The notes beneath the pieces are model-generated. The model saw only the letters and a list, made by a program, of their open reading frames with translations, made no database searches and was not told where the DNA came from. A stretch of 39,699 nt of DNA, from positions 1-39,699 of the forward strand of contig JAAXXL010000021.1 of NCBI GenBank assembly GCA_013334485.1, read 5' to 3'. Made by a program: the position numbers and the translations under genes. This stretch comes from Chlorobiaceae bacterium (GTDB lineage: Bacteria > Bacteroidota > Chlorobiia > Chlorobiales > Chlorobiaceae). Every line of letters starts with the position of its first letter. The stretch's first letter is position 1. Shown here piece by piece: positions 5,709 to 25,799 of the stretch.

Positions 5709-7354
5709 ACCTGGCCCTCCCGGTTTACGTGCAGTTCTGTCAGGCGTCCATACTCAAGGTGAAGACGGCGGTCTGCTGCGTCAAAATACCGGTCATCATG
5801 CGTCACTGCAATAATGGTCAGGCCCCTGCGCTTTAGTTCAGGCAGGATCACCCGATAGAACTTCTTCCTGAAATAGGCATCCTGGTCTGCGGCCCACTCA
5901 TCAAGAATCAGTATCGGCTTTTTCTCAAGCAGCGCAGCTACAAGAGCAAGACGTTTGCGTTGCCCGGTTGAAAGCTCTGTTCGGGTAAACTGGTTGCCGG
6001 TGATAGCGACCACTTTGTCCATCTCCATCCACCCGAGCAACTCTTCGGCTGCAGGGGAGTCGACCTCTCCGAGGCCGTAAAGGTGCGTAAAGAGATGAAA
6101 GTCAGAAAAGACCGGTGCCATGAGGGCACGATATCCGACAAGCAGGGAAGGAGTTATAACCAGCTTGTCCTGATAGAGATGGCCACGATCGGGATGATAG
6201 AGAGAGGTCAGCAGTTTTATCAAACTCGACTTTCCGGAGCCGTTGCCGCCGGTTATGAAAACCACCTCTCCCCGTTTGATGGTTACGTTGAGAGGTCCGA
6301 GAGTGAAGGGTGTTTCACCCTCAGGCGCCGGATAGGCAAACTCCATATCTTCCATACGTATCTCACTGAACTCAGGCGAAAAGCTCTCCCGAAGCTCCTC
6401 GCTGCAGGGCTCAACAATATTGATCAGTTCGCCCTCAAGCTCCATCATACGGCCTGCGGCAGCTTTGGCGGCACGTAGTACTGTCAGGGATTGCATCAAC
6501 CCGAAAACAGGAGGAACCATAAAGAGCACCGCTGCCGATATCTTGACCAGCTCGGTGCGCACCGAAGGGGAGTAGAGAGGAATAACAAAAACCACAAGCC
6601 CCAGCATGAGATTGAACATGGTTTCGCCGAATACAAACTGCTGCCACCCCTGGCGGTGCATTTCACTGCGTGAGGAGACCGTATGCAGTGATAGCTGATT
6701 GAACTCCTCACCAAGAGCTCCGCTCCGTCGGGAGGAGAGACGCTGCTCCTTGAATCCGTCAAGAAGGTCGGTAACACATTCGAAAAGTTTCCCTTCATCA
6801 CCGGCCAGCACCTCCTGACACTTCTCCAGAGAGAGCCCGAGGCGATAGTAGACTGTTGTTGCTACGGCAAGCAGCGCCGTCAGCATAATGCAGGAGAGCA
6901 GGGAGACTGTTGCAATATAGATGAGAATCATCCCGATCTGGATAACCGATCGGGTCGTCAGTGCAAGGTATTGGGAGTTTGATGAAACAACCTTGCAGCT
7001 CTGGGTGATGTTTGTAAAGAGCCTGCTTTGACCGAAGTGCTCCAACTGCCAGAGATCAGCATGACGCAGCCGGTAGATCAGCTTCATGCGAAGCAGATCT
7101 ATCGCCTGTTCGATATCGGCGGCAAAGCGCTCAACCAGACGTGTTTCAAAGATCACATAAGTCAATAGAGCGACAAGAAAGAGCGCGGCAAGCGGCAGAT
7201 TAACGAACTCCTCACGGGTTCTGTCGATCTCTTGGGCAGCAAAGGTAACCACTGAAAGCACAAGAGTGGTGCTCAGTGCCGAGGCTGAAGCAAATGCAAT
7301 AAGCTTCCGCAGAGGTTTGCCACCGATCAGATGCAGGAGACGAAGTAAAGACAA
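5705..7354 (-). CDS. Cyclic-peptide-type ABC exporter, TMD-NBD half transporter (first of pair)
   Basis: A 549-residue paralogue of the next gene, with an N-terminal membrane domain (about residues 1-300) and a C-terminal ATPase. Walker A GGNGSGKSS lies near residue 372, signature LSTGQRKRLAL near 463 and Walker B ILILDEWAADQDA near 480, with the switch His in VTHDDRY. The start is TTG at 7354. A strong AAGGAG lies six bases before it, and no in-frame ATG is better placed. It precedes its partner with an ATGA overlap, which suggests stoichiometric production of a heterodimeric exporter of the PvdE/SyrD type. A 232-nt gap separates it from the epimerase gene upstream, so an extra promoter for export and NRPS2 may sit there. 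Confidence 0.93.
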   Translation of the reverse strand: MSLLRLLHLIGGKPLRKLIAFASASALSTTLVLSVVTFAAQEIDRTREEFVNLPLAALFLVALLTYVIFETRLVERFAADIEQAIDLLRMKLIYRLRHADLWQLEHFGQSRLFTNITQSCKVVSSNSQYLALTTRSVIQIGMILIYIATVSLLSCIMLTALLAVATTVYYRLGLSLEKCQEVLAGDEGKLFECVTDLLDGFKEQRLSSRRSGALGEEFNQLSLHTVSSRSEMHRQGWQQFVFGETMFNLMLGLVVFVIPLYSPSVRTELVKISAAVLFMVPPVFGLMQSLTVLRAAKAAAGRMMELEGELINIVEPCSEELRESFSPEFSEIRMEDMEFAYPAPEGETPFTLGPLNVTIKRGEVVFITGGNGSGKSSLIKLLTSLYHPDRGHLYQDKLVITPSLLVGYRALMAPVFSDFHLFTHLYGLGEVDSPAAEELLGWMEMDKVVAITGNQFTRTELSTGQRKRLALVAALLEKKPILILDEWAADQDAYFRKKFYRVILPELKRRGLTIIAVTHDDRYFDAADRRLHLEYGRLTELHVNREGQV

Positions 7355-7586: not shown

Positions 7587-8831
7587 TCAACGATATATCA
7601 ACTGCACGGCTTCCTCAACGTGACTCCTGAAAGAGTCACAGAGCAATTTGTGACGATCTTCCTGCAGTGAGCTTTCAAACCAGAGCCCGATTTTCCCTTT
7701 CCGGCCCAGTCCATTTATATCGACAATGTTTCCGAACCGGTTAAGTGGGCTCATGCTTTCACCGCTGGGCTCCTCAATGCAAATCTGCCAACTGCTCTCG
7801 TCAATGCCGATGAGCCGTTCAAGATAGTTAAAGAGAATCCCGGGAAGCTTCTCATAACTGTATAATGCCCCGTATCCGATTCCCTGGGCGGGAACGGCTC
7901 TTAACCTTGCCCTGTTCATCCTGATTGTCTCTTCAATACCGCTGCCGACAGTCAGACAAAGAGGAAAAAGCGTTGTAAACCATCCGACTGTCCGGCTGAC
8001 ATCAAGAGGCACAGAAACTCCCTCCCGTCCCGGTTTTTCAACGGTTATCCAGTTCTCCTTTTGTCCGCTCACTTCAAACATTGCACAGGCCAGAGCACCG
8101 AGCAGCAGATCACTTATTTGCGGAGTGCCGTATGCAGGAGCTGGCTGCTGTAAGGTCGAAACTATCTCCGGAGAAAATTCAACCCTGTTGCATTGCATCG
8201 GAGAGTTACCCGCTTCACTGAGTTTCTGCCAGAGCTTTTGGCCCTCCTCCTCAGCCGATCGTGACTTCTCCCAGTAGCTCCGCTCTTCTTGCGTTGCCGT
8301 CAGGGCGTATGACTTTACGGCTTCAACCCACTCCCGGTAACTGCAGCTCCTCTTTTCGGGCTCTCTCTCCAGGTAGAGTGCTTTCAGATCCTCACGGATG
8401 ATCGACCAGCTTGCCGCATCAACCACCATGTGGTGTATCGCAAGAAAAATCCTTTCACTCCCATCTGCATACCCTCCGAGAATCCCGCTCTGCCAGAGAT
8501 AGCCACGTTCAAGGTCAAAGTGGTTTTGCCATCTCGTCAGCGTTTCAACTATCTCCAGCTCACTTTTCCCTTCTGTATCAAGCTCCTTCAGCTCAACAGC
8601 CGTGCTCTCTTTCAATAAGCACTTGCCCCCGGCAGGATAGTGTGCCCTGAGCATTCCATGCCTCAGGCTCAGCTTCTCCAGTGCAACCACCAATCGCTGT
8701 TTGTCAATCGGCTCATTGACGCGGAATAGAAAGGAGTGGTTGAAGTGATTGCGCTTTTCAAGCGGTCTCGTCATAAACCACTCCTGAATGGGCAGATAAT
8801 CGAATGTTTCTGATGATGTCATAATACTCAT
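7587..8831 (-). CDS. Free-standing NRPS epimerization domain
   Basis: A 414-residue single-domain protein with the E-domain motif series in order: LPIQEWF (E1, start of the protein), HHMVVDAASW (E2), SDLLLGAL (E3), VEKPGREG (E4 region), RTVGWFTTLFPL (E5), PAQGIGYG (E6) and FNYL (E7). RTVGWFT, GIGYG and FNYL distinguish E domains from condensation domains. E domains epimerize the alpha-carbon of carrier-bound aminoacyl or peptidyl thioesters and are normally embedded after a T domain. This one is separate and would have to act in trans. The usual Gly of HHxxxDG is Ala, and the His of EGHGRE is Pro, but the catalytic His pair and the Glu are kept. The ATG overlaps the NRPS1 stop by 4 nt (ATGA), so it is probably translationally coupled. 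A C-type function is less likely. Confidence 0.88.
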   Translation of the reverse strand: MSIMTSSETFDYLPIQEWFMTRPLEKRNHFNHSFLFRVNEPIDKQRLVVALEKLSLRHGMLRAHYPAGGKCLLKESTAVELKELDTEGKSELEIVETLTRWQNHFDLERGYLWQSGILGGYADGSERIFLAIHHMVVDAASWSIIREDLKALYLEREPEKRSCSYREWVEAVKSYALTATQEERSYWEKSRSAEEEGQKLWQKLSEAGNSPMQCNRVEFSPEIVSTLQQPAPAYGTPQISDLLLGALACAMFEVSGQKENWITVEKPGREGVSVPLDVSRTVGWFTTLFPLCLTVGSGIEETIRMNRARLRAVPAQGIGYGALYSYEKLPGILFNYLERLIGIDESSWQICIEEPSGESMSPLNRFGNIVDINGLGRKGKIGLWFESSLQEDRHKLLCDSFRSHVEEAVQLIYR

Positions 8832-11800
8832 CTCCCGGCCACCTCCATGGCCATAGCCAATAGTGCATTGAGTCCCTCCTTTGGTATCGAAGGCCAGGTG
8901 ATACCGAAATTTTCAAGCAGAAGCAGGGTCCTCTTCGAGACGACCATAACCTTGTGTCGTCCTGCCAGTCCAGGGTTGGCGGATTGAAGCCCGAAATTCT
9001 CAACGGTTTCTGCAACTGCCGACTCCATCTCATGTTCGCCTGTGGCCTCTTGCAGCCTTGCGAGAAAATCACCGAAACTGCATGCCCTGACACTCTCTCT
9101 CATCCCTTCGGCTGGGAGAATAACATCTGCCAGAGAGTCACGGCGGGATGTCTCAATATGGTGAATCTCATTGGCTAATGACTCTCTCTCTGAAAGTGCA
9201 ATAATTGATCGGGCAACCAGATCGACATGGGAGAGCGATGCCGGAAACTCCATCGGCACAACACCGAGACGGATGAATGCCGCAAGCTGCCGGAAAAATG
9301 CATTATCACGGATGTTCTGCTGGAGCCTTGACCCCTTTGCGGCAAAGGAGATGTTTCCGACCCGGTGGATGGTGCAGTCGGGAAGCTCTGATCGGTATGC
9401 AAGGACAAGCCGTTCAGCCTCCTGCTTGGAGCGGATATAGTAGTTGTCATCGAGAACCTCTGGAGGAGAGTCATACTCGGTAAAGAGCCTGCTTTCGCCA
9501 TAGAGAGCACTTGCTGCAACTGAAAGGGTGGAGACAAAATGAAAATCAGCACTCTTTCCGCTTTGTTGCGCAGCCAGACGGAGAAGGTGGCGTGTTGCCG
9601 AGACATTGTCAGCAAGAAAATCACGGTAGTGACCGATATGGTTTACATTGGCAGCACAGTGGTAGATGGCATCAACTGTGTCCGAAAGCAGGCTGTAATC
9701 ATACTCCCGAAGAAGCAGTTGCGCATGACGGAGATCACCTGAAAGAAGCTTCAGTCGCGGATTTTCAAGCAGTGCACTTCCCTCATCAGGACCGAAATAC
9801 CAGTTCAGAACCTGCGCCAGCCGTCTCCGCCCGGCAACAGTGTCGCTGCTCCGCACCAGCACCGTTACCTCAACACTCTTGTCGGCAAGCAGTTCACGCA
9901 AGAGATAGCTTCCCAGATAACCGGTTGCGCCGGTAAGCAGCAGATGGCGGTATGATCGGCAAAGCCTGAGATCACGTTTCAGATCGGCCGCTACTCTCTC
10001 TTCATAGTGGAGTCGCTGAGGACGCAACAGCTCCTCCTGATCATAACCTGCATCCTGCTGAAGGCTCTCTGAACACTCCTGTTCTATAGAGAGACTCAAG
10101 AGAAGGTTGCGCAGATGATCGGGTCGGGGATTGCAGAGAAGGGCAAAGTCAGAAAGCACCGGGTGTTCGTAAAGGTTATTGACGGTACACTCAAACTCAC
10201 GGCCAAGACGGTTTATGACAGCTATAGCCTTCAGGCTGTCACCGCCAATGTCAAAAAAATGATCCTCCCGTGAGAGCATCGGCTTGCGGAGCAGTTCCGA
10301 CCACACCTCTGAAATCCTTTTTTCAATGGCGCTCTGCGGGGGTGTGCGATTGAATTGATGCTCGCTCTCCGATCCCTCATCCGCGAGCGGAAATGCCATT
10401 TGTGATTGCGATTCAAGCAGCGCCTCCCTGTCGACTTTCCCTGCCGGCGTGAGCGGTATTGAAGGGATCCGGATTATTGACGCAGGAATCATCCAGGAGG
10501 GGAGTGTTGCCGAGAGCCAGGTGGTCCACTCCACGTAAGTTGGAATTGAGGCCTCTTCATCAGCGGTAACAAATGAACGGAGAAACTGGCTATGGTCAGC
10601 ATCTGTTTCCACGATGGTAACCGCCTGCTGTATGCCCGGCCAGGAGGCAAGTCGGTGCTCAATTTCACCGAGTTCGACACGCTGACCGCGTAATTTCACC
10701 TGTGTGTCCCTTCTCCCGAGAATCTGCAGTTCGCCTGATGGAAGCCACCTGCCGAGATCGCCGGTTCTGTATCGTCGCTCTCCCTTCACGAAGAGGAATG
10801 CCGAAGCTGTAAGATCGGGTCTGTTGAGGTAGCCTTTAGCCAAACTCGCTCCTCCGACCCATACGTCACCGATAGAGCCGGGCGGAAGTGGTTTGCCCTC
10901 TTCTGAGGTTATATAAATTGTGGTGTTGGGAAGGGGACGACCGGTATGGATCGCTTCTTGATCGGGAAGAATACGACCGAGAGAAGAAGCCGCCGTATTC
11001 TCGGTAGGACCGTAACCATTGAAGTATGAAAGCTTTGGTGCGTAATAGCGGGCATCATCACTCACCGGCGACTCACCAACAGTCATGATAAGGCGGAGGT
11101 GGGCAGGAAATTCAGCCTGTTCAAACAGTCGAAGATAGGAGGGGGACATCGTTGCAATGGTGACCCCCCTGTGCCGGATCAAATCATGCATACAGGGAAT
11201 ATCATTCATCTCTTCACGCCTGACCGGCACCAGCGCTGCACCGGCGGCCCATGATACGGCCAGATCGCTTATCCAGAGATCAAATGAGGGCGAAGCGATC
11301 TGCATTACCCGGTCATCACTGTGGAGATCAAAAATTTCGGACTCGCCGAAACCGAGATTGAGCAGCCCCCTGTGGGAGAGCACAACACCTTTTGGCAGGC
11401 CGGTGGAACCTGACGTATAGATGATATAGGCAGGATCGTCAGGTGCAACTGTTCTGTCAAGTTCCCCTGAATCAGCCGGATCGTTGGGCATCTCTTCCGG
11501 TCGCACTATATGGAACTCATCACCGCCGAGTTCCGGTGGGAGGGGAAGCTGGTCAAGCGCAATGATAACTCGCACGCTGCACTCCCTGGCCATGAAGGCA
11601 AGCCGCTGTGGCGGCAGATCGGCTGAAAGTGCCAGATAGCATGCACCGGCTTTCCAGATTGCAAGCACCGTCTCCTGAAGTGTTGTGGAGCGCTCCGTCA
11701 ACACCGCGACGGTATCACCCGGCTGCACATCACGTTTCAGAAGAACACGGGCCAGGGTTTCAGCCCGGGTGTTGACAAGGTGGAAGCTCAACTCCGCCCC

Positions 11801-14800
11801 GGCAGTAACCACTGCGGGCCGCCCGGGGTAGAGCGAAGCGATCCTCAAGAAATGCTCGGGAAGAGTCTTTGCCGGCCAGGTACGGAGTGCACCCTGTTGC
11901 CAGCATGCAAGTTGCGCCTCCTCTTCAGGCAGCAGAAGCGGCAAAGGAGGTGATCCGCCATTGTTCTCCATGCTTAAAAACCGCATCCAGCCAATCAGGG
12001 AATCAAACATTCGGCGGGCACTACTCTCGCTATAGATGACGGCATTGACATAAAAGGTAAGAACAACTCCTCCATCTGCCTCTCCCTCATGCACCAGCAC
12101 CATGTCCTGAGCAGGCGCATTTTTTCGAACTTCATAGCCAACCACGCCATACTCAGGAAGGCCAAGCCCGCTGAAAAGGGGCTCCCGCTCTTCAGACGGA
12201 GTGAATGGCGGATTTTCTGTAACAGCAATATCAAAAAGAGGATAACGACCAGGATGCACTCCCGGCTCCTGATTACGACGAAAATCACTGTAGATTCTCG
12301 AAAATGGGTATCGGGAGTGCTGAAGGGCTTCAGCAAGCTGATGCTGCATCTGCTGCACCACAGCATCAACTGAAGGTGATTCAGGTGCGCGGAAAACAAG
12401 CGGAAGCATGTTTATAAAATATCCTATGGTTCGCATCTCGTCACCTGATTGCCGTGTAGAGGCGGCAGTACCAAGCATAAAACTGTTTCGACCAGTACGG
12501 CGGCGAACTTCAAGCCCGAGCAGGGCGAGCATGAAGGCGTGAAGCGTTGAGCGGTTTCTTTTGGCAAGTGAACGCAGTCCATTTGCGGTCTCCCTGCCAA
12601 GAATGGTTCGCAAACAGTGGCTTCCGACGCAGGAGGAGGCGGAACGTGAGTTTGGACGCAATGAGTCAAGCGGCCACTCATCAAAGGCTTCAGGCGAATG
12701 TTTCAGAAGGCCGCCGGTGAGATTGTTCCAGTACTCAGCGTCGAAGAGTGCACTGCTGCTCTCCAGATAGGCGGCTTCACGCGCTGCCGGGCGATCGAAA
12801 CCGGCGCTCAGCACTGAGAGTGCGCTGCCTGTGAGCAGAGCCGAAAGTTCATCGATGAGAATGCCGAGCGAGAGCCCGTCGCCGACAGCATGATGCATTA
12901 CAAACCAGAAAACGCTCTGCGGGTTTTCACCAACAGTTATCAAACCTGCACGCCAAAGCCCCGGCTGGCTCATGGAAAAGGGTTCACTTTGGAAGCTGTT
13001 GGCAAGTGCACGGGCCTCTTGAAGCGTTGAGGAGAATTGAAACAGCGGGAGGGCATCAACCTTGTCAGAGACCACCCGCCGAAGGAGTCCTGATTCATCC
13101 TCAAGAAATCCGGTACGAAGGGCTTCATGCCGCTCGATCAACTCACTCCAGAGTGCGCTGAACTTTTCCGGAGAGGGCGCTTCGAGATGCAAAAGCAGCG
13201 TCAGGGGGATATTGAATCCGCTGGTGTCAAGCCCTGCATGCTCGGCCGTCCAGAACTCACGCTGCCCCTCTGTAGCAAGGTCTGAAAGGCCGTCAAGGGT
13301 TCCCTCCTCTGTGGCTCTCAACTCGCGAACCCTTTCAGAAAAACCGGCAAGGGTTGGTTCCGCAAAGAGTTCGCGAGCGGGAACTTCACGCCCGAGTTGT
13401 TTTTCGAGTCGATGGGCAACAGAGATTGCCAGCAGACTGTGACCGCCGAGAGCAAAAAAGTTGTCTTCGCGATGGATCGGAGTTCGTTTCAACAGATCAC
13501 TCCAGATCCCGGCAATAGAGCTTTCCAGCTCATCTTCTGGCAAAGTCAGCCCGGAGTTCAAAGGATGAAGATCCAGCAGGTCAAGAAGTGCCCCCCGGTC
13601 CACCTTGCCTGAAACCATCAGGGGAATGGAGTCCACCGAAATCACTCCGGAGGGGATCATATGAGAGGGCAGGCGCTCCATCAGGAAGGTTTTCCACGCA
13701 TCCATTCCGGGCATCTGCTCTCCCGGAGCAGGCCGAACAACTCCCCATAAACTCTTTGCTCCCCCTGGTTGCTCCTGCAGAAGAACCACCGCCTGCGAGA
13801 TTGCCGGATGCAGCATCAGAGCGTACTCTATTTCGCCAGGTTCAATGCGAATTCCGTTCAACTTCACCTGCTCATCAATACGCCCGATAATCTCAATAGT
13901 TCCATCCATGTGCCAGCGGCCAAGATCTCCGGTACGGTAGAGACGACCATGCGGACTCTCCCTGAAACATGACGCATTGAGTTCCGGACGGTTCAGGTAC
14001 CCCTGGCTGATTCCGAGGCCTCCCAGCCAAACCTCTCCCGCAACCCCAGGGGCGAGTGCGCTGCCCTCTTCATTGCAGACAAAGAGTGTAGTATTCGGCA
14101 GGGGACGACCGCATGAGAGAAAACGGCGATCATCACCCGTCAGAACGCCCATGGTGCTGGTTATCGTATTCTCTGTTGGACCATAGGCGTTGAAATAGCT
14201 CAGCTTCGGAGCATACCGATACACATCGGCCGGCAGCGGAGCTTCGCCCCCGGTTACCAGCACCCGCACAGAGGAGGGGAGCTCCATCCCCTCGAAGAGT
14301 CCGAGATAGGTTGGGGTAATGTCTGCCACCGTGATACGCATCTCCTGCAGAAAATCAAGAAAACGCTTTGGTGACTCAATAATATGTTTCGGCACAGCAC
14401 AAATCGTACCACCTGTCAAGAGCGGTAAACCTATATCGGAGAGGGAGACGTCAAACGATGGGGAGGCGAACAGGAGAGAGCGGTCATCGGCATTGAAACC
14501 AAGAATTGCGGCGGCACCGAGCACCATATTCACCAGACTTTTGTGTGCAATCAGTGTTCCTTTCGGCCTGCCGGTCGAGCCCGAGGTATAGAGGATGTAG
14601 GCCGTATCCTCCGGGTCACCAACATTTTCAGCTCTTTGCGCATATTGCTGCAGATATTCTCCGGTCAGCTCCTCGGGCCGCAACGGATCGGAAAAGAGGC
14701 AGGAAAGCACTTCAGGCAAGGCCACGCCGTCAAGAACAATGAGATGAGTTGCCCCGGCATCTTCAGCCATAAAGCCGATCCGTTCCGGCGGCAGTTCAAC

Positions 14801-17800
14801 GGAGAGGGGCAGGTAGATGGCACCACTTTTCCATATACCCAGCAGTGCTGCCGGAAGGTTCGGTGAACGACCGGTCAGAACCGCTACCACACTCCCTTTT
14901 GAGACTCCGCATTCTGAAAGTGCGTGAGCAATGGCGTCAGCCTCATTATCAAGCTCCCTGTAGGTGATCTGGCGATCCGGTGTTATGACTGCCGGCCTGC
15001 CAGCCTGACCCGGCAGACCAGTGATACGCTCAAAAAGGTGGTGAACACAGAGTTGCGGGCGCTCGATCATCTCTCCCTGTTGCCATGCGCCAAGCATGCA
15101 CAACTCCTCCTTGAGGAGAGAGGGAAGGGGACGATCCGCATTTTCCTTGCTTTCCGCAAGCCATCGAGCCCATCCTCTCAGCGCTTCAAGCCAGATCCGG
15201 GCCGTCTCCTGACTGTAAATGGCGGCATTGACATGCCATTGCAGCAGAATTTCCCCTCTCTCCAGATTCTCATGGATAAGCACCATATCCTGGCCGGGTG
15301 AATTGCCGGTAAATTCATACCGGATTGATTCATCCGGATTTCGGGAGCGTGAAAAACAAGAGGCTCCACCAACCCTGTTGCTGCCTGGATTTTCCGTTAC
15401 TGCAATATCAAAAAGGGGATAGCGCTGTGGATTGCGCAGTTGCGGACGATCGTTCCAGAAAGAGTGGCAGATGCGGGAAAACGGGAGCCTGGCATGCTGC
15501 AGTGCCTCGGCGAGGTGTTGCTGTGTTGATTGAAGGAGTTCGCTGAAGGTTCGCTGACGTTCTGCCTTGAGATGGAGGGGGAGCATATTCACTCCATAGC
15601 CGACTATCAGTGAGTCGGACGCTCGCTCCCGGAGAGAAGCCGTGGTACCGATCATGATGTCGCTCCTGCCGGTGCGCCGGCCGGCTTCGAGTGCGAGAAG
15701 CGAAAGAATCAGCGAGTGTAGCGTTGCACCATTATTGCGCGCAAGAGCTTTGAGCACATCGGCTGTCCGGCACTCAAGGAGTAGCTCAAAACGATGGCTG
15801 CCCGTTGCACTCCTTGAGGATCGAGCCATGTCGAGAGGCCACTCCTCAAATGCCGGATCCGGTACCTGATGCAGGAGGTTTTTCCAGTGGAGCGCCTCTT
15901 TTGTCGCCTCCGGAGAAGCAAGATAGGAATACTCACGTGCAGCAAAGAGTTTCCCGCCTTTCACCTGCCCTGAGAGCTCACCCGCCTGAAGCAGGGTGGT
16001 CAGTTCACTCAACAGGGTAGCGATCGACTGCCCGTCACCAAGAGCGTGATGAAGCGCCAGCCAGAAAAAACGCTCCTGCCCCTCTGCGGTTTCAACAAGA
16101 CCGGCCCGCCACAGAGGAGTTGCACTCATCGAAATGGAGGTGAACTGCCGTTCGCGTATCAGGCCGAGAGCATCGGCCCGGGAGAAGGTCTGTGAAGATT
16201 CAAGCGTCCACTCAACATCATCAGCAATATGGCGTCTTAATTGTCCGGTTTCATCCTCCGCAAAACTGCTCCGTAAAGCTTCATGGCGCTTTACCAGAAT
16301 CGCCCATGCACTCTGGAGGCGATCTGTTGTAATCTCTCTGCTTATGAGATAGTCAACCGGAATAATGAAATTACGGGTATCAAGTCCGGCTGACTCTGCA
16401 ATCCAGAACTCATGTTCACCTTCAGAGGCAAGAGCACTCTCCTCTTCGACAGCATCCTCCTGGGAGAGCGGCTCCAGGGTTGCTATTGTTGCGACAAACA
16501 TCCTCAGTGTCGGAGCCGCAAAGAGCGCGCGTGCAGAGACCGGCAACCCGAGTGTTTCTCGTATGCGATGAGCCACGGTTACGGCAAGCAGACTGTTACC
16601 GCCGAGGGCGAAGAAGTTGTCGCTTCCGACAACACTCTGCTCAAGCAGATCGGCCCAGATGGCACCTACCTTTCGTTCAAGCGGACTCTGAAGCATCTCC
16701 ACATGAACGTCACTCTTTCGCTTCTCCTGCAGAGAGCTGAAGAGTGCCATCCGGTCAACTTTTCCGGAAGGGGTAAGCGGAATAACTGCTACCGCCATGA
16801 TTGAAGCCGGAACCATATGCAGCGAGAGGTGCCCGGATAGATAGTCAAGAAGCTTTGCCTCGGAAAACAGGCTCATATTTTCGGGTTGCACAAAAGCCCT
16901 AAGCACCTTCACTCCGCTCTGCAGCTCATCGGCAAGCACAACAGCAGTGACAACTGAAGGGTGCAGGGAGAGCATCTGCTCTATTTCGCCAGGCTCAACA
17001 CGCTGACCGTTCAGCTTGATCTGCTGATCGATTCGACCGCTGATTTCAAGTTGACCTTCCCTGCTCCATCTACCATAGTCGCCTGAGCGATAGAAGAGGC
17101 CTTCCGGGCTCTCTACAAAGTGCATCGCACTCTCCTCAGGCTGATTGAGATATCCCCGGGCGATCCCCAGACCGCCGAGCCAGATCTCACCCTCTGCGCA
17201 GGGAGGAACCGGAGAGCCGTCATCCCTACGGACAGAAATCTGCATGTTGGAGAGGGGAGTGCCCACGCTGATGGGGCATCGAGGATCGTGGTCACCCGGA
17301 ATCAGAGCCCCCGACACCACAATGGTCGCCTCGGTAGGGCCATAAAAATTCCAGAATGCGACACTGCCTGCGTAGAGCGCAACATCGTTATGGTTCGGAG
17401 CCTCTCCTCCGGTGAGCAGAATACGCAATCCTTCGAACGGCAGTTTCTCGCTGACCCTGAGGTATGACGGCGTATGAAAGGCAACGGTGACGCCAAGATC
17501 GCGATAGTATGGCTTCATCTGCCACGGATCTTCACGAAGTGCGGGGGCAACCGGAACCATAGCAATCCCGCTGAAAAATCCGTGGCCCATCTCCCAGAGG
17601 GATGCATCAAAAGTGATGGTCGAAACAAGTGCGATACGGTCATCATCTCGAAGCCCTATGCGCTCTGCAACACCAACTATTGTATTGATATATGCAGCAT
17701 GTGTTACGGGAACCCCTTTTGGAGTGCCGGTCGTTCCCGAGGTATAGATAATGTAGGCAACATCATCCACTGTTCCGTCAATCTCCGGTCGCAGCGCTGA

Positions 17801-20800
17801 AGGTGAAGAATCCTCCGGTCGGATAATGGCATCAAACTCCCGCGAGAGAGCCTCTGGCGTGGTGAGACCGTCAAGGACAATAAGATGCTTTGCGCGGGCA
17901 TCTCTGGCCATTGTTGCCAGTCGAGCTGCGGGAATATCAGCAGAGAAGGGGAGATAGGATCCTCCTGCTTTCCATATTGCGAGCACTGTAGCCGGGAGAT
18001 TTCCGGGAGCTGAAGCAAGTACAGCAACAACTGTACCCCGCACCACACCGTGACTCTTGAGGCATGCTGCAATGCCGTTTGCCCGGAGATCAAGATCCAT
18101 GAAGGATTCGAACTTCTCTCTTATGATAATTGCCGGACGACATGGATTGTGATCAACAATAACTTCGAAAAGTTCATGACTGCGCCGCTCTGTCCGGATC
18201 TGCTTCGCCCCGTTTTCCCATATCCGGAGCAGCTCCTGCTCTTCCGGAAGCAGTGCGGGCAGCGGCTGCTCCATCCTTTCAGGATCTTCAGCCAGCCATC
18301 GAGCCCATGCAGCAAATGAAGAGAGCCACGCCCTGGCGCCCTCAATCGAGATCACTTCAGCGTTCCAGCTCAACAGCAGATTCAAGGCGCCACTCTCTTC
18401 AGCAGAAGGTTCATGACTGAAGGAGAGATCAAGACCGGCGGCCGGATGCCTGTCTTCTCCAGTGAGAGTAAGGGGCTCCAGCGTGATACCGCTCTTGCGG
18501 TCAATGCTGGTGCGGGAAGGAATTGCGGTCAGGGCAATATCGAAAAGTGAAGTCCGGGATGGTGCGCGAAGGTCGGGATAGCTCCGGCGAAACTCTCTGT
18601 AGAGCATGCCTGCTGGATAAGCTGCATGTTCAACGGTTTCAGTCAATGCTGACTGGGTAGTGCGCAAAAGAAGCGAAAAGGGGAGATCGCCATCCTTCAA
18701 AAGAATAACAGGAAGGAGGTTGACGAAATGGCCGACTGCGTTCTCATCCCCGGCAGGTCTGATGGTAATGCCGCTTCCGATCAGAATGTCACTTTTTCCG
18801 GAGCGGCGCCTGATCTCCGAAGCGAGAACGGCCAGAAGCAGGGCATGCAACCCGGTTCCGCAGCGTTTAGCCAGCCGCCCGAGAGTGCTCACCGTCGCTG
18901 CATCAAGCTGCTCCACAAGAGGCTCATCGCCATCTGATCCGGACAATGCGGGACGCTGATGTTCCGTTACATATTCACTGAAGGCACCGCTCGCTCTTGC
19001 GGCTAAAGCCTCCAGACTGCTCGACCAGAATATGCGGTCGCGTTCGGCTTTTCCAGAGTGCAGATAGAGACGCTCTGCCCTGCTGGCCATGGCAATGCCG
19101 TTTGGTGCCGTTTGCAGCCGAACTCCGCCAAGCAGAGAGAGCAGATCATCCTGTATGATTTTGGCGGATGTGCCGTCCACAACAGAGTGGTGGAGCACGA
19201 ACCAGAAAAGTGTTTTCCTGCTTTCCTCAATCCTGACAATACCAGCCCTGGCTAAAGGGGGATCATCAAGCTTGAACCGATCATTTGCCCGGCGTTCAGC
19301 GATGCTGCGGCCCTCTGCTCCTGAATGACAATGATCAATCCGAAGTGCTGCGTGAGCGGATAACTCGCATGAGGAAACGGTTCGCCAGCAGATCCGGCCC
19401 GATTCATCTGCATATAACGCTGTTCGCAGCGCAGCATGGCGATCAATCAACCCTGCCCAGGCCGATTGCCATGCATTATTTGAAAATTCGCGACCTCTGA
19501 CATAGAGAACGCGCACAATGTGTGACGCTGCCGGATCAAGATCGAGCTCCGAGGCAATCCAGAAATCCTCCTGGTCTGCCGTTGCAATATCAGAAACAGT
19601 CTGATCCTGGTTGCCGGGAAGTTCAGGTTGCAGCTCAATCTCAGAGATCTTTTCTGCAAGTCCCCTGATGCTCAGGGTGCTCAGAACCATCTGCACCGGA
19701 ACATGGTAACCAAGCAGATGCAAACGCTGACTTACAGCAATGGCAAGCAGACTTGTTCCGCCTGCGGCAAAGAAGTTCTGCTCTCTCATGATCGGTCGGA
19801 CATCAAGAAGCTCCTCCCAAATTGAGGCGATGGCCTTTTCAATATCTCCCTCCGGAGGGGTAGAGCAATCTCCTTCTCCAGCGCCGTTAAAGAGGATACC
19901 TTCTGCAATCTCCTGAAGGGCTCTCTGGTCAACCTTGCCTGCCGAGCTTAACGGCATCTTCTCCAGCACGACAACATGTGCAGGAATCATATAGGAAGGT
20001 AGAGTCCTTTGAAGAAACTCACGCCACGCTATCGCTTTCGCATCTGCTAAATCATGGGACTCGACAAAGGCATAAAGCATCTTTTTAAGATGTAAAACCT
20101 TTGCGATCTTAACTGCAGGATGGCGCTGGAGCGCAAGCTCAATCTCATCAAGCGAAACCGCCTGCCCGGAAATTTTTACCGCATTGTCTGATCTTCCGAG
20201 TGTTTCAAGTTCACCGTTGCTGTTCCATCGGGCAAGGTCACGTGAACGGAAAGCTCGCCCATAACGTGTTTCAATAAAATACTCTGCGTTCAGTTCAGGT
20301 TGCTTCAGATAGCCTGGAGAAACACCGACACCAACAACATGAACTTCACCGATTTCGCCTTGCGGCACCTCATTTCCCTCCTCATCGAGCAGATAGACCT
20401 CCGTATTTGCAAACGGCCGGCCGCTCAACACAGTACCCGTTTCATCGGGATCGACATGATGCATGCAAATGGTACCGCACACCTCAGTTGCGCCGTGTAC
20501 ATTCCAGTAATCAACATATTCGGCATAATATCTCGCATCATCAGCATTCGGCAGTTCACCGGCAGTTATGACACAGCGAAGCCCCTCAGGAACTGCCCTG
20601 TCAAGAAGATGAAGGTATGATGGGGTAAAAAGCGCGATTGAAACATGGTGGCGACTCATCAACTCAATCAGGAGATCAGGTCTGTCTACTACAGATCGTG
20701 ATACCGGGACAAAGGCTGATCCTGAAATCAGGGGAATGCAGAGCGTTCGGAAACCAAGAATAAATACAGGAGAGGAGGAGAGCAGGATGCGGTCTTCACT

Positions 20801-21391
20801 GGTGATATGATGCGCCTCTATATGACCAAGTACCATATTGACACAGGCGGCATGGGTCAGGGGTACCCCTTTCGGAGTCCCGGAAGAGCCGGAGGTAAAG
20901 AGAATTGCCGCAAGAGCATTGGCTCCGCCGTTCCGCTCCGCGGAGGTAAGGCTCTTTGTTCCCGGCGGACTCAACTCCCCGGGTCTCAAAACCGCATCGG
21001 ATGGAGAAATGGCTCCGTTGTGTAAAAGAGCCTCTGTCAGCACCGAAGGAACAGCAATACCATCAAGAACAATCAGAATGCGCAGAGCGGCCTGTTCAGC
21101 CATGTTAGCAAGGCGCTCCGGAGGCAGGTCGGCCGCCATGGGGACATAGACACCGCCCGCTTTGAGAATTGCAAGAAACGCTGCCGGCAGATCTGCTGAC
21201 CGTTCTGTGAGAACACCGATTGATTCTTCAGACATGATTCCACGGGATTGCAGTGCAACGGCAAGCCTGTCGGAAGCTGCGTCCAGTTCGCTATAGGTTA
21301 AAAGAAGATCATCAGTAATAATTGCGGGTGCGGAGGGCTGGAGGCTCGCTGATATTTTGAAATAGTCATCTATTTTCTGGTGATACTGCAT
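8828..21391 (-). CDS. Four-module NRPS with terminal thioester reductase (A-T-C-A-T-C-A-T-C-A-T-R)
   Basis: A 4,187-residue synthetase that starts with no C domain. A1 spans about 20-500, with T1 at Ser547. C1 carries HHSVVDG (734-740). A2 has FDAS Asp1262, with T2 at Ser1600. C2 carries HHALGDG (1781-1787). A3 has FDVS Asp2314, with T3 at Ser2652. C3 carries HHAVGDG (2833-2839). A4 has FDLW Asp3371, with T4 at Ser3719. An R domain follows: GATGYLG from 3821, and YxxxK at Tyr3985/Lys3989. R domains use NAD(P)H to release the thioester as an aldehyde or alcohol. Pocket residues read by eye: A2 DAWFLGFIVK (near the Leu code DAWFLGNVVK); A3 DVSDVGAITK and A4 DLSTMVGAAK (no code I recognise). A1 has Ile211 in place of the invariant Asp. 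The ATG at 21391 lies 6 nt after the radical SAM stop. No E, MT, Cy or TE domain is present. Confidence 0.97.
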   Translation of the reverse strand: MQYHQKIDDYFKISASLQPSAPAIITDDLLLTYSELDAASDRLAVALQSRGIMSEESIGVLTERSADLPAAFLAILKAGGVYVPMAADLPPERLANMAEQAALRILIVLDGIAVPSVLTEALLHNGAISPSDAVLRPGELSPPGTKSLTSAERNGGANALAAILFTSGSSGTPKGVPLTHAACVNMVLGHIEAHHITSEDRILLSSSPVFILGFRTLCIPLISGSAFVPVSRSVVDRPDLLIELMSRHHVSIALFTPSYLHLLDRAVPEGLRCVITAGELPNADDARYYAEYVDYWNVHGATEVCGTICMHHVDPDETGTVLSGRPFANTEVYLLDEEGNEVPQGEIGEVHVVGVGVSPGYLKQPELNAEYFIETRYGRAFRSRDLARWNSNGELETLGRSDNAVKISGQAVSLDEIELALQRHPAVKIAKVLHLKKMLYAFVESHDLADAKAIAWREFLQRTLPSYMIPAHVVVLEKMPLSSAGKVDQRALQEIAEGILFNGAGEGDCSTPPEGDIEKAIASIWEELLDVRPIMREQNFFAAGGTSLLAIAVSQRLHLLGYHVPVQMVLSTLSIRGLAEKISEIELQPELPGNQDQTVSDIATADQEDFWIASELDLDPAASHIVRVLYVRGREFSNNAWQSAWAGLIDRHAALRTALYADESGRICWRTVSSCELSAHAALRIDHCHSGAEGRSIAERRANDRFKLDDPPLARAGIVRIEESRKTLFWFVLHHSVVDGTSAKIIQDDLLSLLGGVRLQTAPNGIAMASRAERLYLHSGKAERDRIFWSSSLEALAARASGAFSEYVTEHQRPALSGSDGDEPLVEQLDAATVSTLGRLAKRCGTGLHALLLAVLASEIRRRSGKSDILIGSGITIRPAGDENAVGHFVNLLPVILLKDGDLPFSLLLRTTQSALTETVEHAAYPAGMLYREFRRSYPDLRAPSRTSLFDIALTAIPSRTSIDRKSGITLEPLTLTGEDRHPAAGLDLSFSHEPSAEESGALNLLLSWNAEVISIEGARAWLSSFAAWARWLAEDPERMEQPLPALLPEEQELLRIWENGAKQIRTERRSHELFEVIVDHNPCRPAIIIREKFESFMDLDLRANGIAACLKSHGVVRGTVVAVLASAPGNLPATVLAIWKAGGSYLPFSADIPAARLATMARDARAKHLIVLDGLTTPEALSREFDAIIRPEDSSPSALRPEIDGTVDDVAYIIYTSGTTGTPKGVPVTHAAYINTIVGVAERIGLRDDDRIALVSTITFDASLWEMGHGFFSGIAMVPVAPALREDPWQMKPYYRDLGVTVAFHTPSYLRVSEKLPFEGLRILLTGGEAPNHNDVALYAGSVAFWNFYGPTEATIVVSGALIPGDHDPRCPISVGTPLSNMQISVRRDDGSPVPPCAEGEIWLGGLGIARGYLNQPEESAMHFVESPEGLFYRSGDYGRWSREGQLEISGRIDQQIKLNGQRVEPGEIEQMLSLHPSVVTAVVLADELQSGVKVLRAFVQPENMSLFSEAKLLDYLSGHLSLHMVPASIMAVAVIPLTPSGKVDRMALFSSLQEKRKSDVHVEMLQSPLERKVGAIWADLLEQSVVGSDNFFALGGNSLLAVTVAHRIRETLGLPVSARALFAAPTLRMFVATIATLEPLSQEDAVEEESALASEGEHEFWIAESAGLDTRNFIIPVDYLISREITTDRLQSAWAILVKRHEALRSSFAEDETGQLRRHIADDVEWTLESSQTFSRADALGLIRERQFTSISMSATPLWRAGLVETAEGQERFFWLALHHALGDGQSIATLLSELTTLLQAGELSGQVKGGKLFAAREYSYLASPEATKEALHWKNLLHQVPDPAFEEWPLDMARSSRSATGSHRFELLLECRTADVLKALARNNGATLHSLILSLLALEAGRRTGRSDIMIGTTASLRERASDSLIVGYGVNMLPLHLKAERQRTFSELLQSTQQHLAEALQHARLPFSRICHSFWNDRPQLRNPQRYPLFDIAVTENPGSNRVGGASCFSRSRNPDESIRYEFTGNSPGQDMVLIHENLERGEILLQWHVNAAIYSQETARIWLEALRGWARWLAESKENADRPLPSLLKEELCMLGAWQQGEMIERPQLCVHHLFERITGLPGQAGRPAVITPDRQITYRELDNEADAIAHALSECGVSKGSVVAVLTGRSPNLPAALLGIWKSGAIYLPLSVELPPERIGFMAEDAGATHLIVLDGVALPEVLSCLFSDPLRPEELTGEYLQQYAQRAENVGDPEDTAYILYTSGSTGRPKGTLIAHKSLVNMVLGAAAILGFNADDRSLLFASPSFDVSLSDIGLPLLTGGTICAVPKHIIESPKRFLDFLQEMRITVADITPTYLGLFEGMELPSSVRVLVTGGEAPLPADVYRYAPKLSYFNAYGPTENTITSTMGVLTGDDRRFLSCGRPLPNTTLFVCNEEGSALAPGVAGEVWLGGLGISQGYLNRPELNASCFRESPHGRLYRTGDLGRWHMDGTIEIIGRIDEQVKLNGIRIEPGEIEYALMLHPAISQAVVLLQEQPGGAKSLWGVVRPAPGEQMPGMDAWKTFLMERLPSHMIPSGVISVDSIPLMVSGKVDRGALLDLLDLHPLNSGLTLPEDELESSIAGIWSDLLKRTPIHREDNFFALGGHSLLAISVAHRLEKQLGREVPARELFAEPTLAGFSERVRELRATEEGTLDGLSDLATEGQREFWTAEHAGLDTSGFNIPLTLLLHLEAPSPEKFSALWSELIERHEALRTGFLEDESGLLRRVVSDKVDALPLFQFSSTLQEARALANSFQSEPFSMSQPGLWRAGLITVGENPQSVFWFVMHHAVGDGLSLGILIDELSALLTGSALSVLSAGFDRPAAREAAYLESSSALFDAEYWNNLTGGLLKHSPEAFDEWPLDSLRPNSRSASSCVGSHCLRTILGRETANGLRSLAKRNRSTLHAFMLALLGLEVRRRTGRNSFMLGTAASTRQSGDEMRTIGYFINMLPLVFRAPESPSVDAVVQQMQHQLAEALQHSRYPFSRIYSDFRRNQEPGVHPGRYPLFDIAVTENPPFTPSEEREPLFSGLGLPEYGVVGYEVRKNAPAQDMVLVHEGEADGGVVLTFYVNAVIYSESSARRMFDSLIGWMRFLSMENNGGSPPLPLLLPEEEAQLACWQQGALRTWPAKTLPEHFLRIASLYPGRPAVVTAGAELSFHLVNTRAETLARVLLKRDVQPGDTVAVLTERSTTLQETVLAIWKAGACYLALSADLPPQRLAFMARECSVRVIIALDQLPLPPELGGDEFHIVRPEEMPNDPADSGELDRTVAPDDPAYIIYTSGSTGLPKGVVLSHRGLLNLGFGESEIFDLHSDDRVMQIASPSFDLWISDLAVSWAAGAALVPVRREEMNDIPCMHDLIRHRGVTIATMSPSYLRLFEQAEFPAHLRLIMTVGESPVSDDARYYAPKLSYFNGYGPTENTAASSLGRILPDQEAIHTGRPLPNTTIYITSEEGKPLPPGSIGDVWVGGASLAKGYLNRPDLTASAFLFVKGERRYRTGDLGRWLPSGELQILGRRDTQVKLRGQRVELGEIEHRLASWPGIQQAVTIVETDADHSQFLRSFVTADEEASIPTYVEWTTWLSATLPSWMIPASIIRIPSIPLTPAGKVDREALLESQSQMAFPLADEGSESEHQFNRTPPQSAIEKRISEVWSELLRKPMLSREDHFFDIGGDSLKAIAVINRLGREFECTVNNLYEHPVLSDFALLCNPRPDHLRNLLLSLSIEQECSESLQQDAGYDQEELLRPQRLHYEERVAADLKRDLRLCRSYRHLLLTGATGYLGSYLLRELLADKSVEVTVLVRSSDTVAGRRRLAQVLNWYFGPDEGSALLENPRLKLLSGDLRHAQLLLREYDYSLLSDTVDAIYHCAANVNHIGHYRDFLADNVSATRHLLRLAAQQSGKSADFHFVSTLSVAASALYGESRLFTEYDSPPEVLDDNYYIRSKQEAERLVLAYRSELPDCTIHRVGNISFAAKGSRLQQNIRDNAFFRQLAAFIRLGVVPMEFPASLSHVDLVARSIIALSERESLANEIHHIETSRRDSLADVILPAEGMRESVRACSFGDFLARLQEATGEHEMESAVAETVENFGLQSANPGLAGRHKVMVVSKRTLLLLENFGITWPSIPKEGLNALLAMAMEVAGR

Positions 21392-23095: not shown

Positions 23096-23977
23096 ATGAT
23101 GAACTCCATATTGAAACGTCTCCGCGAATGGTTCGCCAAATTCAACTCCTTCACTAAATCTTTCGTCCGCCAGAACGCACTTCCGCTGATTTCAACGGTT
23201 TTACTGGCTCTTCTTGTAATCCTCTTCTTTTTTGACCGGACCGTCATTTCGATTCAATCGGGTCAGAGGGGTGTTCTCTGGAGGTGGCTCGGTGCCGGCA
23301 CTGTTATTGACACTGTCTATCCGGAAGGTGTTCACCTGATTCTGCCATTCAACAAGATGTTCATATACAATATCCGCAAGCAGCAGTTCAGTGATTCGAT
23401 CGATGTTCTTACAGTTGACGGACTCACCGTAAGGGTAAAGTACACGGTGCGCTATTACCTTGAACCGACAACACTTCCTCTGCTCCATCAGTTCGTCGGC
23501 CCCGACTTTGTCAACGTAGCAATTCGTCCGGATATCCGCTCGGTTGTCCGCACCCTCTTCGGACAGTATAAACCCGAAGAGATTTACACCTCGCAAAAGG
23601 CGATCCAGTTACTCTTCAGTGAAAAATCCAAGGTCCACCTCGCTGCCCGCTTTGTAAAGATAGACGATGTTCCCATTGAATCGATAACCCTGCCGACAAG
23701 CATCTCCAAAGCCATTGAAGAGAAGATGGTTCAACAGCAGCGGGAGGGTGAATATGTCTACCGTCTTTCGATTGCCGAGAAAGAGGCCGAGCGCCTTAAG
23801 ATTGAATCCGATGGAATTCGTGTCTACAATGAAACCGTAAACAAGAGTCTGACGGCTTCAGTTCTGAAATGGGAAGGCATTCGCGCTACGCGTGAACTGG
23901 CAAAATCTCCGAATGCAAAGGTTGTCGTGATAGGTTCCGGCCAATCCGGTCTGCCGATCATTTTAGGCAAGGATTGA
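23096..23977 (+). CDS. SPFH/prohibitin-family membrane protein
   Basis: A 293-residue protein with one transmembrane segment (about residues 28-50). An SPFH (band 7/prohibitin) domain of about 55-230 follows, then a charged helical stretch rich in Glu/Lys/Arg (REGEYVYRLSIAEKEAERLK) typical of prohibitin-type oligomerization helices. Such proteins form membrane-bound rings that scaffold or protect membrane complexes and often control proteases. Two consecutive ATG codons at 23096 and 23099 could each be the start. The next gene begins 3 nt after this stop, so the two are an operon and the binding protein may depend on this scaffold. The family call is solid; the cellular partner is unknown. 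Confidence 0.85.
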   Translation: MMNSILKRLREWFAKFNSFTKSFVRQNALPLISTVLLALLVILFFFDRTVISIQSGQRGVLWRWLGAGTVIDTVYPEGVHLILPFNKMFIYNIRKQQFSDSIDVLTVDGLTVRVKYTVRYYLEPTTLPLLHQFVGPDFVNVAIRPDIRSVVRTLFGQYKPEEIYTSQKAIQLLFSEKSKVHLAARFVKIDDVPIESITLPTSISKAIEEKMVQQQREGEYVYRLSIAEKEAERLKIESDGIRVYNETVNKSLTASVLKWEGIRATRELAKSPNAKVVVIGSGQSGLPIILGKD

Positions 23978-23980
23978 GCG

Positions 23981-25132
23981 ATGAAAAAAAAGCTTTTCTG
24001 GGGTGTTGCCGCCATTTTGCTTGCTCTCCTCTTCTATACCCAGCATGGTTCCTATGAAGACAAGTGGAAGCGCCGGTTCAAGGTATTGAACGAGCCATCC
24101 GATGAGGTGCTTATCGGTGTTTGCTGGCCATTTTCCGTAAACCGTGACGGTATGGCGGACGGTATTCATCTGGCACTGGATGAGATAAACTCCCGCAGGC
24201 TTGCTGGCAGATATACTTTTCGCCTGATTGAACGGGATGATGAGTTTGACAGCAAAAAGCAGAAAAGTATTGCAAGGGAGTTTGCCGACAGAGCTGATAT
24301 GAGCGCTGTTCTGGGCTACTATGATGACGGGCCTGCAATCAGGGCATCATCGATCTATGAGTCGAGCCGCCTCCTGCATCTGATGATCGGCGCCAACAAT
24401 ACCGATATGACCTCGCACGGCTTCAACTATATCAATCGCACCATTCTGTCAAGTGACCGGATCGCATTGAAACTGGCCAAACTGACAACCGATCTCGGTT
24501 ACCGTAAAATCGTTGTTTTATGGGAGGAGGATGCCTATGGTGAGGATCTGGCATATCAGTATCAGGCCGGTCTTGATCAGCTCAATGCCCAGGTTGTCTA
24601 TCAATGGTCCTTTTCAAGAAAACATGCTGATTTTCGGCTGCTGGTCAACGATCTGAAAATGGTGGATGCTGATATGATCTTTTTCAGCGCCCTCGAACCG
24701 ATTGCCGGCGATTTTTTACGAATGGCCCGCAAGGTCGGACTGAAAACTCCCGTTCTCGGAGCATTCAGCAATACTCCCGAGATGCGGGAACATGCCGGTC
24801 CGACAGCATATGAGGGCGCGATGATGTTTGACTTCTATAACCCCCATTCCCCGAGCCCGGAAAACCAGCTCTTTGTCAACAAGTTTGTTGCCCGATATGG
24901 CCGTTATCCGGATGCCTGGGCGGCGCAGGGCTATGATGCGCTCAATCTCATAGCAAGGGCAGTAAGGTTTACCGGATCACGCAACCCCCTTGATCTCTCC
25001 TATGCGATCAGGTATGGAGATGCCTTCAACGGCGCTAATGGCAGATACAAGTTTGACCGTGCGGGCAATCTTGAAGATAAGCCCATATACCTTTACAGGA
25101 TTCAGAATGGCGTACCGGTACTTATTGAATAA
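23981..25132 (+). CDS. Type-1 periplasmic binding protein (Leu/Ile/Val-receptor-like)
   Basis: A 383-residue protein with an N-terminal hydrophobic stretch (residues 5-19) that may be a signal or a membrane anchor. The receptor-like fold matches amino-acid/urea-type ABC binding proteins (Peripla_BP_6 style): a DGIHLALDEINSR element near 60, SAVLGYYDDGPA near 110, the YRKIVVLWEEDAYGED strand-loop near 170, and the C-terminal AQGYDALNLIARA helix. No permease or ATPase genes adjoin it, so it may be a receptor and not part of a transporter. AAGGA sits ahead of ATG 23981, 3 nt after the SPFH stop. The ligand is unknown. Confidence 0.82.
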   Translation: MKKKLFWGVAAILLALLFYTQHGSYEDKWKRRFKVLNEPSDEVLIGVCWPFSVNRDGMADGIHLALDEINSRRLAGRYTFRLIERDDEFDSKKQKSIAREFADRADMSAVLGYYDDGPAIRASSIYESSRLLHLMIGANNTDMTSHGFNYINRTILSSDRIALKLAKLTTDLGYRKIVVLWEEDAYGEDLAYQYQAGLDQLNAQVVYQWSFSRKHADFRLLVNDLKMVDADMIFFSALEPIAGDFLRMARKVGLKTPVLGAFSNTPEMREHAGPTAYEGAMMFDFYNPHSPSPENQLFVNKFVARYGRYPDAWAAQGYDALNLIARAVRFTGSRNPLDLSYAIRYGDAFNGANGRYKFDRAGNLEDKPIYLYRIQNGVPVLIE

Positions 25133-25262: not shown

Positions 25263-25799
25263 ATGAAAGAGAACACAGATGAAACCTATGCTGAAGTAGT
25301 TGCAGAAAGTGTAAACGACACTCTGGATCGTGATCAACGTGTTGAGAAACATGCAAGAAATCACATTCTGACAGCAATGGGCATAGGACTTTTCCCGCTT
25401 CCGATCATTGATATGGTTGCGCTGGTGGGTGTGCAGCTTGATATGATCAGGACGATTGCAAATGAATACAATGTTCCATTCAGACGTGATCTCGGAAAAT
25501 CCGTTATCACAACCCTGCTTGGTGGTTTTGTTCCCGTCGCACTTGGAGGAACTCTTGCCAGTTTGATTAAATGTATTCCCCTGATTGGACAGTCTGCTGG
25601 CGCAGTTACCATGCCGGTTGTCGCCGGAGCAGCTACCTACGCGATTTCCAGGGTATTCATCCAGCACTTTGAATCAGGCGGAACTTTTCTTGATATGGAT
25701 CCCGCGAAAGTGAAGTCCCATTTTGCCGAACAGTTCGAAAAAGGGAAAAAGGTAGCGACCGATTTGAAGAAAGAGGGCAAGGCAAGTCCGGCTAACTGA
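25263..25799 (+). CDS. DUF697 family membrane-associated protein
   Basis: A 178-residue protein with an acidic N-terminus and a central domain that resembles DUF697 (the domain also found at the C-terminus of YcjF-like and GTPase-linked proteins). The GIGLFPLPIIDMVALVGVQL segment near residues 40-60 and two later Gly/Ala-rich hydrophobic stretches (about 80-100 and 115-130) are the key features. The C-terminus is Lys-rich. A good SD precedes ATG 25263, and a strong terminator follows at 25829, so this is a monocistronic unit. The molecular role of the family is not established. Confidence 0.72.
   Translation: MKENTDETYAEVVAESVNDTLDRDQRVEKHARNHILTAMGIGLFPLPIIDMVALVGVQLDMIRTIANEYNVPFRRDLGKSVITTLLGGFVPVALGGTLASLIKCIPLIGQSAGAVTMPVVAGAATYAISRVFIQHFESGGTFLDMDPAKVKSHFAEQFEKGKKVATDLKKEGKASPAN

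Follow-up and report, generated by a model that had tools for sequence, protein, structure and literature searches.

An adenylation domain with isoleucine at position 235 and an invariant pocket arginine starts a nonribosomal peptide synthetase of the Chlorobium group

Introduction

In the adenylation (A) domains of nonribosomal peptide synthetases (NRPS), the alpha-amino group of the substrate is anchored by Asp235 in GrsA numbering (PMC11355689), and the replacement of this residue has been tied to the activation of keto acids (PMC4558948). The keto-acid A domains StsA, HctE/HctF and HapC present a hydrophobic residue in place of Asp235, and the aryl-acid ligases EntE and DhbE, which are stand-alone enzymes of another branch, also do without the aspartate.

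Keto-acid modules of the StsA/HctE type carry a ketoreductase, located either between A8 and A9 or in the module, the signature of aryl-acid domains is Asn235, and some beta-amino acid A domains, such as VinN, have an Asp at position 230 instead of 235. Residue 239, which lies at the floor of the GrsA pocket, is an Arg in those A domains of ACV synthetase and McyE by which a dicarboxylic amino acid is activated at its distal carboxyl, and a Lys in para-aminobenzoate A domains. A fungal domain, SidE A1, reportedly activates fumarate, giving fumarylalanine, and the aureusimine-type NRPS with a terminal reductase follow an A-T-C-A-T-R logic.

The window considered here, i.e., the whole stretch of 39,699 nucleotides that was analysed, is an entire contig (JAAXXL010000021.1) of a Chlorobium-group genome, of which Chlorobium ferrooxidans is a close named relative. 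It encodes an NRPS, NRPS1, whose starter domain, A1, shares its fold, its catalytic motifs and its position in the tree with GrsA, TycA, LgrA A1 and ApnA A1, and differs from them in Ile235, Arg239, the GATE of A5 and the loss of two Arg from A8. Like the keto-acid domains and the aryl-acid ligases, A1 is without Asp235, although it is part of a multimodular line, unlike EntE and DhbE. The likeness to SidE A1 is one of function alone, that is, of the dicarboxylic-acid starter without an amino group proposed for A1. NRPS1 has this A-T-C-A-T-R logic and reductive release in common with the aureusimine-type enzymes, but possesses four modules and another starter pocket, and falls below the family cut-off.

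Organisation of NRPS1

The line and its domains are located as follows:

8828-21391, minus strand: NRPS1, 4187 aa by translation, domain order A-T-C-A-T-C-A-T-C-A-T-R
19838-21391, minus strand: A1, starter adenylation domain, pocket I L R L I A V G T K (GrsA alignment)
19622-19837, minus strand: T1, carrier of the loading module, directly after A1, GGTSL
18242-19594, minus strand: C1, acceptor of the starter unit, HHSVVDG (Pfam)
16679-18187, minus strand: A2, code DAWFLGFIVK
13568-15049, minus strand: A3, code DVSDVGAITK
10394-11869, minus strand: A4, code DLSTMVGAAK
9209-9937, minus strand: terminal reductase (R) domain, NAD_binding_4, E 1e-40

The Pfam content comprises four AMP-binding, three Condensation and four PP-binding domains and NAD_binding_4, and the HHxxxDG, GGxS, Rossmann and YxxxK motifs are intact. 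From published codes, we take that of A2 to be Leu-like and that of A3 to be Arg-like. These codes are kept across phyla, as DAWFLGxIxK in most copies of A2, DVSDVGA[IV]TK in A3 and mostly D[LA]STMVGAAK in A4, and a single type of product would thus be expected, consisting of an acyl cap and three residues that are released reductively. In the NRPS1 of a Sphingomonadales genome, the stretch from A2 to A3 holds one condensation and one carrier domain more (locus L063, 14678-17977).

The substrate pocket of A1

Four features of A1 bear on its pocket and core motifs:

20747-20761, minus strand: codons of I211-L212-G213-F214-R215, GrsA positions 235-239, with Asp235 replaced by Ile and Trp239 by Arg
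20471-20500, minus strand: A5 motif, V298-H-G-A-T-E-V-C-G306-T307
20150-20176, minus strand: A8 motif, K406-I-S-G-Q-A-V-S-L, with both usual Arg replaced and the Lys retained
19934-19936, minus strand: A10 Lys486, equivalent to GrsA Lys517, retained

The alignment of A1 with GrsA has no net gap between the position of Asp235 and A5, which places Leu212 at 236 and Arg215 at 239. The absence of Asp235, assigned by the original prediction to 20700-20800, was borne out, given that Ile211 (codon 20759-20761) occupies this position within an A4 stretch that translates as SSSPVFILGFRTLC, and so was the retention of the aspartate by A2 (FDAS), A3 (FDVS) and A4 (FDLW). The A5 motif does read HGATE, as had been claimed; its His is replaced by Tyr in several relatives, and GATE, without the Pro, is common to all. 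The A8 motif reads VKISGQAVSLDEIE, also given as KISGQAVSLDEIE, and here the reported loss of an Arg is real, but was undercounted, as both Arg of K-I-R-G-x-R are replaced.

A1 has the fold and the core motifs of an A domain (A3, the A5 Glu, the A7 Asp and the A10 Lys), with Ile in place of Asp235 in all 27 copies. Across 48 domains, no variation is seen in the P-loop, the A5 Glu, the A7 Asp, the A10 Lys or the Arg that precedes A8. The pocket, in GrsA numbering, is composed of I235, L236, R239, L278, I299, A301, V322, G330, T331 and Lys517. Its lining consists of Leu, Ile, Leu and Val, and the summed size of its residues is not below that of the GrsA pocket. A long fatty acid is unlikely to be bound in this pocket.

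An acidic residue that could replace Asp235 was sought at the compared pocket positions 230-334, and none was found, the only acids of A1 in this stretch being Glu303, which is also present in A2-A4, the Glu327 of A5 and a Glu240 that several relatives have in common with GrsA. The Asp at 230 of the VinN type is likewise absent, this position being a Ser in the A1 of the window, while the other copies inspected have Ser, Thr or Ala. The net charge of the pocket is +1 in A1 and -1 or -2 in A2-A4, and the shift from -1 to +1 comes through Arg239. This invariant residue, the feature that bears most specifically on the substrate, was not mentioned in the original prediction.

Fold, phylogeny and conservation of A1

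The AF2 model of A1 (mean pLDDT 90) has a normal A-domain fold, and its best structural matches are TycA, LgrA, ApnA A1 and GrsA, a likeness of fold that is no proof of function. A tree of 51 A domains unites the A1 family in a single clade (support 100/99), as it does A2, A3 and A4, each in turn, and places EntE and the one Fischerella domain that represents the keto-acid type outside the A1 clade, both on long branches. Given that A1 is one clade inside the amino-acid-type domains, Asp235 would have been lost once, within that type, and A1 is, by phylogeny and fold, best described as an amino-acid-type A domain that lost this residue independently.

Orthologues of A1, with 51-81% identity, are present in single copy in 16 of the 65 genomes of the genus. 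Outside the genus, they occur in Azospirillum, a Roseomonas-labelled strain, Magnetospirillum fulvum and further relatives from its order, Methylobacter tundripaludum, in whose family the Methylobacter genome is the only one of 237 that carries A1, and a Sphingomonadales MAG. This patchy distribution would be consistent with horizontal transfer. Identity to the Methylobacter and Azospirillum copies is 56-59%; the edge of the family lies at 51% identity, and the next A domains, at 34-36%, have Asp235. I235, L236, R239 and G330 are invariant in the 27 aligned copies, from two phyla, a pattern that is beyond chance.

Few domains of the line are as well conserved as A1, which has the highest identity (81%) to C. 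ferrooxidans and the lowest dN/dS (0.14) among the eight domains compared. A domain that has lost its activity, with T1 loaded by another enzyme or skipped, is highly improbable, even though Asp235 and both A8 Arg are missing, because A1 is strongly conserved under purifying selection and retains its catalytic residues, T1 and C1 downstream need a donor, and no stand-alone ligase is conserved adjoining A1.

Neighbouring genes and their distribution

NRPS1 is flanked by the following genes:

4074-5708, minus strand: ABC exporter of the cyclic-peptide type, TIGR01194, 61% identity to an Azospirillum protein
5705-7354, minus strand: ABC exporter of the cyclic-peptide type
7587-8831, minus strand: stand-alone condensation-superfamily protein of the epimerase type, HHMVVDAASW, TIGR01720
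21398-22708, minus strand: radical SAM protein, 6 bp upstream of NRPS1, weak similarity to the Rv2578c/PA0069 families
23096-23977, plus strand: SPFH/Band_7 protein
23981-25132, plus strand: periplasmic binding protein (PBP), Peripla_BP_6
25263-25799, plus strand: DUF697 protein

The radical SAM gene starts the NRPS operon. A second NRPS (3-4067), in which a TubC_N docking and a carrier domain precede the first A domain (T-A-C-A order), runs off the contig. Across the contig (1-39699), the NRPS genes have a G+C content of about 55%, and the right half has about 45%.

The SPFH and DUF697 genes are present in 15 of the 16 genomes with NRPS1 and in none of the other 49 of the genus (Fisher 7.7e-14, a value that overstates independence, given the common ancestry of related genomes), the exception being G076, where A1 lies on a short contig. 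The radical SAM gene is found in 12 of the 16 and in none of the 49. It accompanies the NRPS in Chlorobium, M. fulvum and G509, and a TauD dioxygenase gene, rather than radical SAM, does so in Azospirillum, Methylobacter, the Sphingomonadales MAG and G475. The two were found together in none of the loci examined, and a few loci have neither. In aerobic relatives, the gene found at the NRPS is TauD, and in the Azospirillum, Methylobacter and Sphingomonadales loci it takes the place after NRPS1 that the epimerase-type gene has in the window.

The tight link between an NRPS and SPFH, DUF697 and PBP genes is unusual, and no report of it was found in the literature searched. In Alphaproteobacteria, the ABC/SPFH/PBP/DUF697 set, which is conserved at the NRPS1 locus, also occurs away from NRPS1-type NRPS (L180-L183), and in G578 (L184) the SPFH, PBP and DUF697 genes adjoin a PKS-NRPS gene, for which reason this set seems to accompany such pathways more generally.

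Discussion

Judged by its sequence, A1 probably is active and takes a substrate that has no alpha-amino group, which is the best reading given the lack of any acidic replacement for Asp235. That the altered pocket has been kept in unrelated bacteria also indicates that the peptide most likely does not start with an ordinary amino acid. The original prediction of a domain that is either inactive or activates an aryl, hydroxy, keto or fatty acid thus survives in part, in that a non-amino acid is the best reading, whereas kinship with aryl- or keto-acid domains found no support in the tree and inactivity is unlikely.

The invariant Arg239 suggests a substrate that carries an anionic group at its far end, as a small dicarboxylic acid would, and on the pocket floor this Arg would most likely grip a distal anionic or strongly polar group. 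We tentatively propose that this substrate may be succinate, fumarate, 2-oxoglutarate or a similar small dicarboxylic acid; the lack of an amino group we infer, and the dicarboxylate we guess. The Lys239 of the para-aminobenzoate domains means that a cation at this position is no proof of a carboxylate partner, and a gene for the synthesis of an unusual acid is not a constant neighbour of the NRPS across the lineages, which counts against our reading. The closest analogy, ACV synthetase, requires the alpha-amino group and refuses adipic acid (PMC7147772), which counts against a dicarboxylate.

The TauD-type dioxygenase that follows the NRPS in Azospirillum led us to consider an epoxysuccinate starter, by analogy with E-64, which is not preferred, given that the TauD gene is missing from the Chlorobium loci.

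An alpha-keto or alpha-hydroxy acid, from pyruvate- to phenylpyruvate-like, as in StsA, HctE and HapC, is a somewhat doubtful alternative, in which the replacement of Asp235 in keto-acid domains, usually by Val (PMC4558948), has to be set against a search of NRPS1 with Pfam that yielded no ketoreductase in or after A1, a pocket, ILRLIAVGT, that has little in common with the keto code VGVWLAASA, and the separation of the keto-acid domain from A1 in the tree, albeit on a long branch. An aromatic acid of the benzoate, salicylate or para-aminobenzoate type is less probable again. The missing Asp235 and the Lys239 of the para-aminobenzoate domains would fit such a substrate, but A1 has Ile rather than the aryl-acid Asn at 235 in the GrsA alignment, EntE is separate from it (again on a long branch), the structures closest to its model are those of amino-acid A domains, its pocket has an aliphatic lining and residues no smaller in sum than those of GrsA, and no aryl-acid pathway genes lie beside it.

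It is slightly less likely still that the substrate of A1 is an amino acid bound in an atypical way, for example, Asp or Glu activated through the side-chain carboxyl. Arg239 is what such distal-carboxyl domains have, yet they retain an Asp or Glu at 235, and A1 has Ile in every copy, with no acid replacing the aspartate.

If a carboxylic acid without an alpha-amino group is indeed the substrate, A1 would load T1 with this small acid, and the peptide would receive an acyl cap, which C1 would couple to the residue of module 2 prior to the addition of two further residues. The R domain would then free the chain reductively, as an aldehyde or alcohol, and the two ABC proteins would export it. The predicted product is therefore an acyl-capped tripeptide with reductive release.

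Taken to its full extent, this reading would assign A1 to a new class of loading domains, of amino-acid type by origin, in which the amino-group anchor has been swapped for a floor Arg and which load a dicarboxylic acid of central metabolism, to start a reductively released tripeptide that has spread between green sulfur bacteria and proteobacteria with an SPFH/DUF697/PBP set for export or self-protection, a proposal that is possible, if speculative.

No description of the substrate of a starter class with the pattern ILRxxxxGxK was found in the literature searched, which also yielded nothing useful on nonribosomal peptides of C. ferrooxidans or on A domains connected with fumarylalanine. This pattern, with Ile-Leu-Arg at 235/236/239 and an invariant Gly330, is the mark of a starter-unit class that occurs in cultured bacteria, Azospirillum brasilense and Chlorobium ferrooxidans, and the substrate of A1, once established, would give A-domain prediction another rule.
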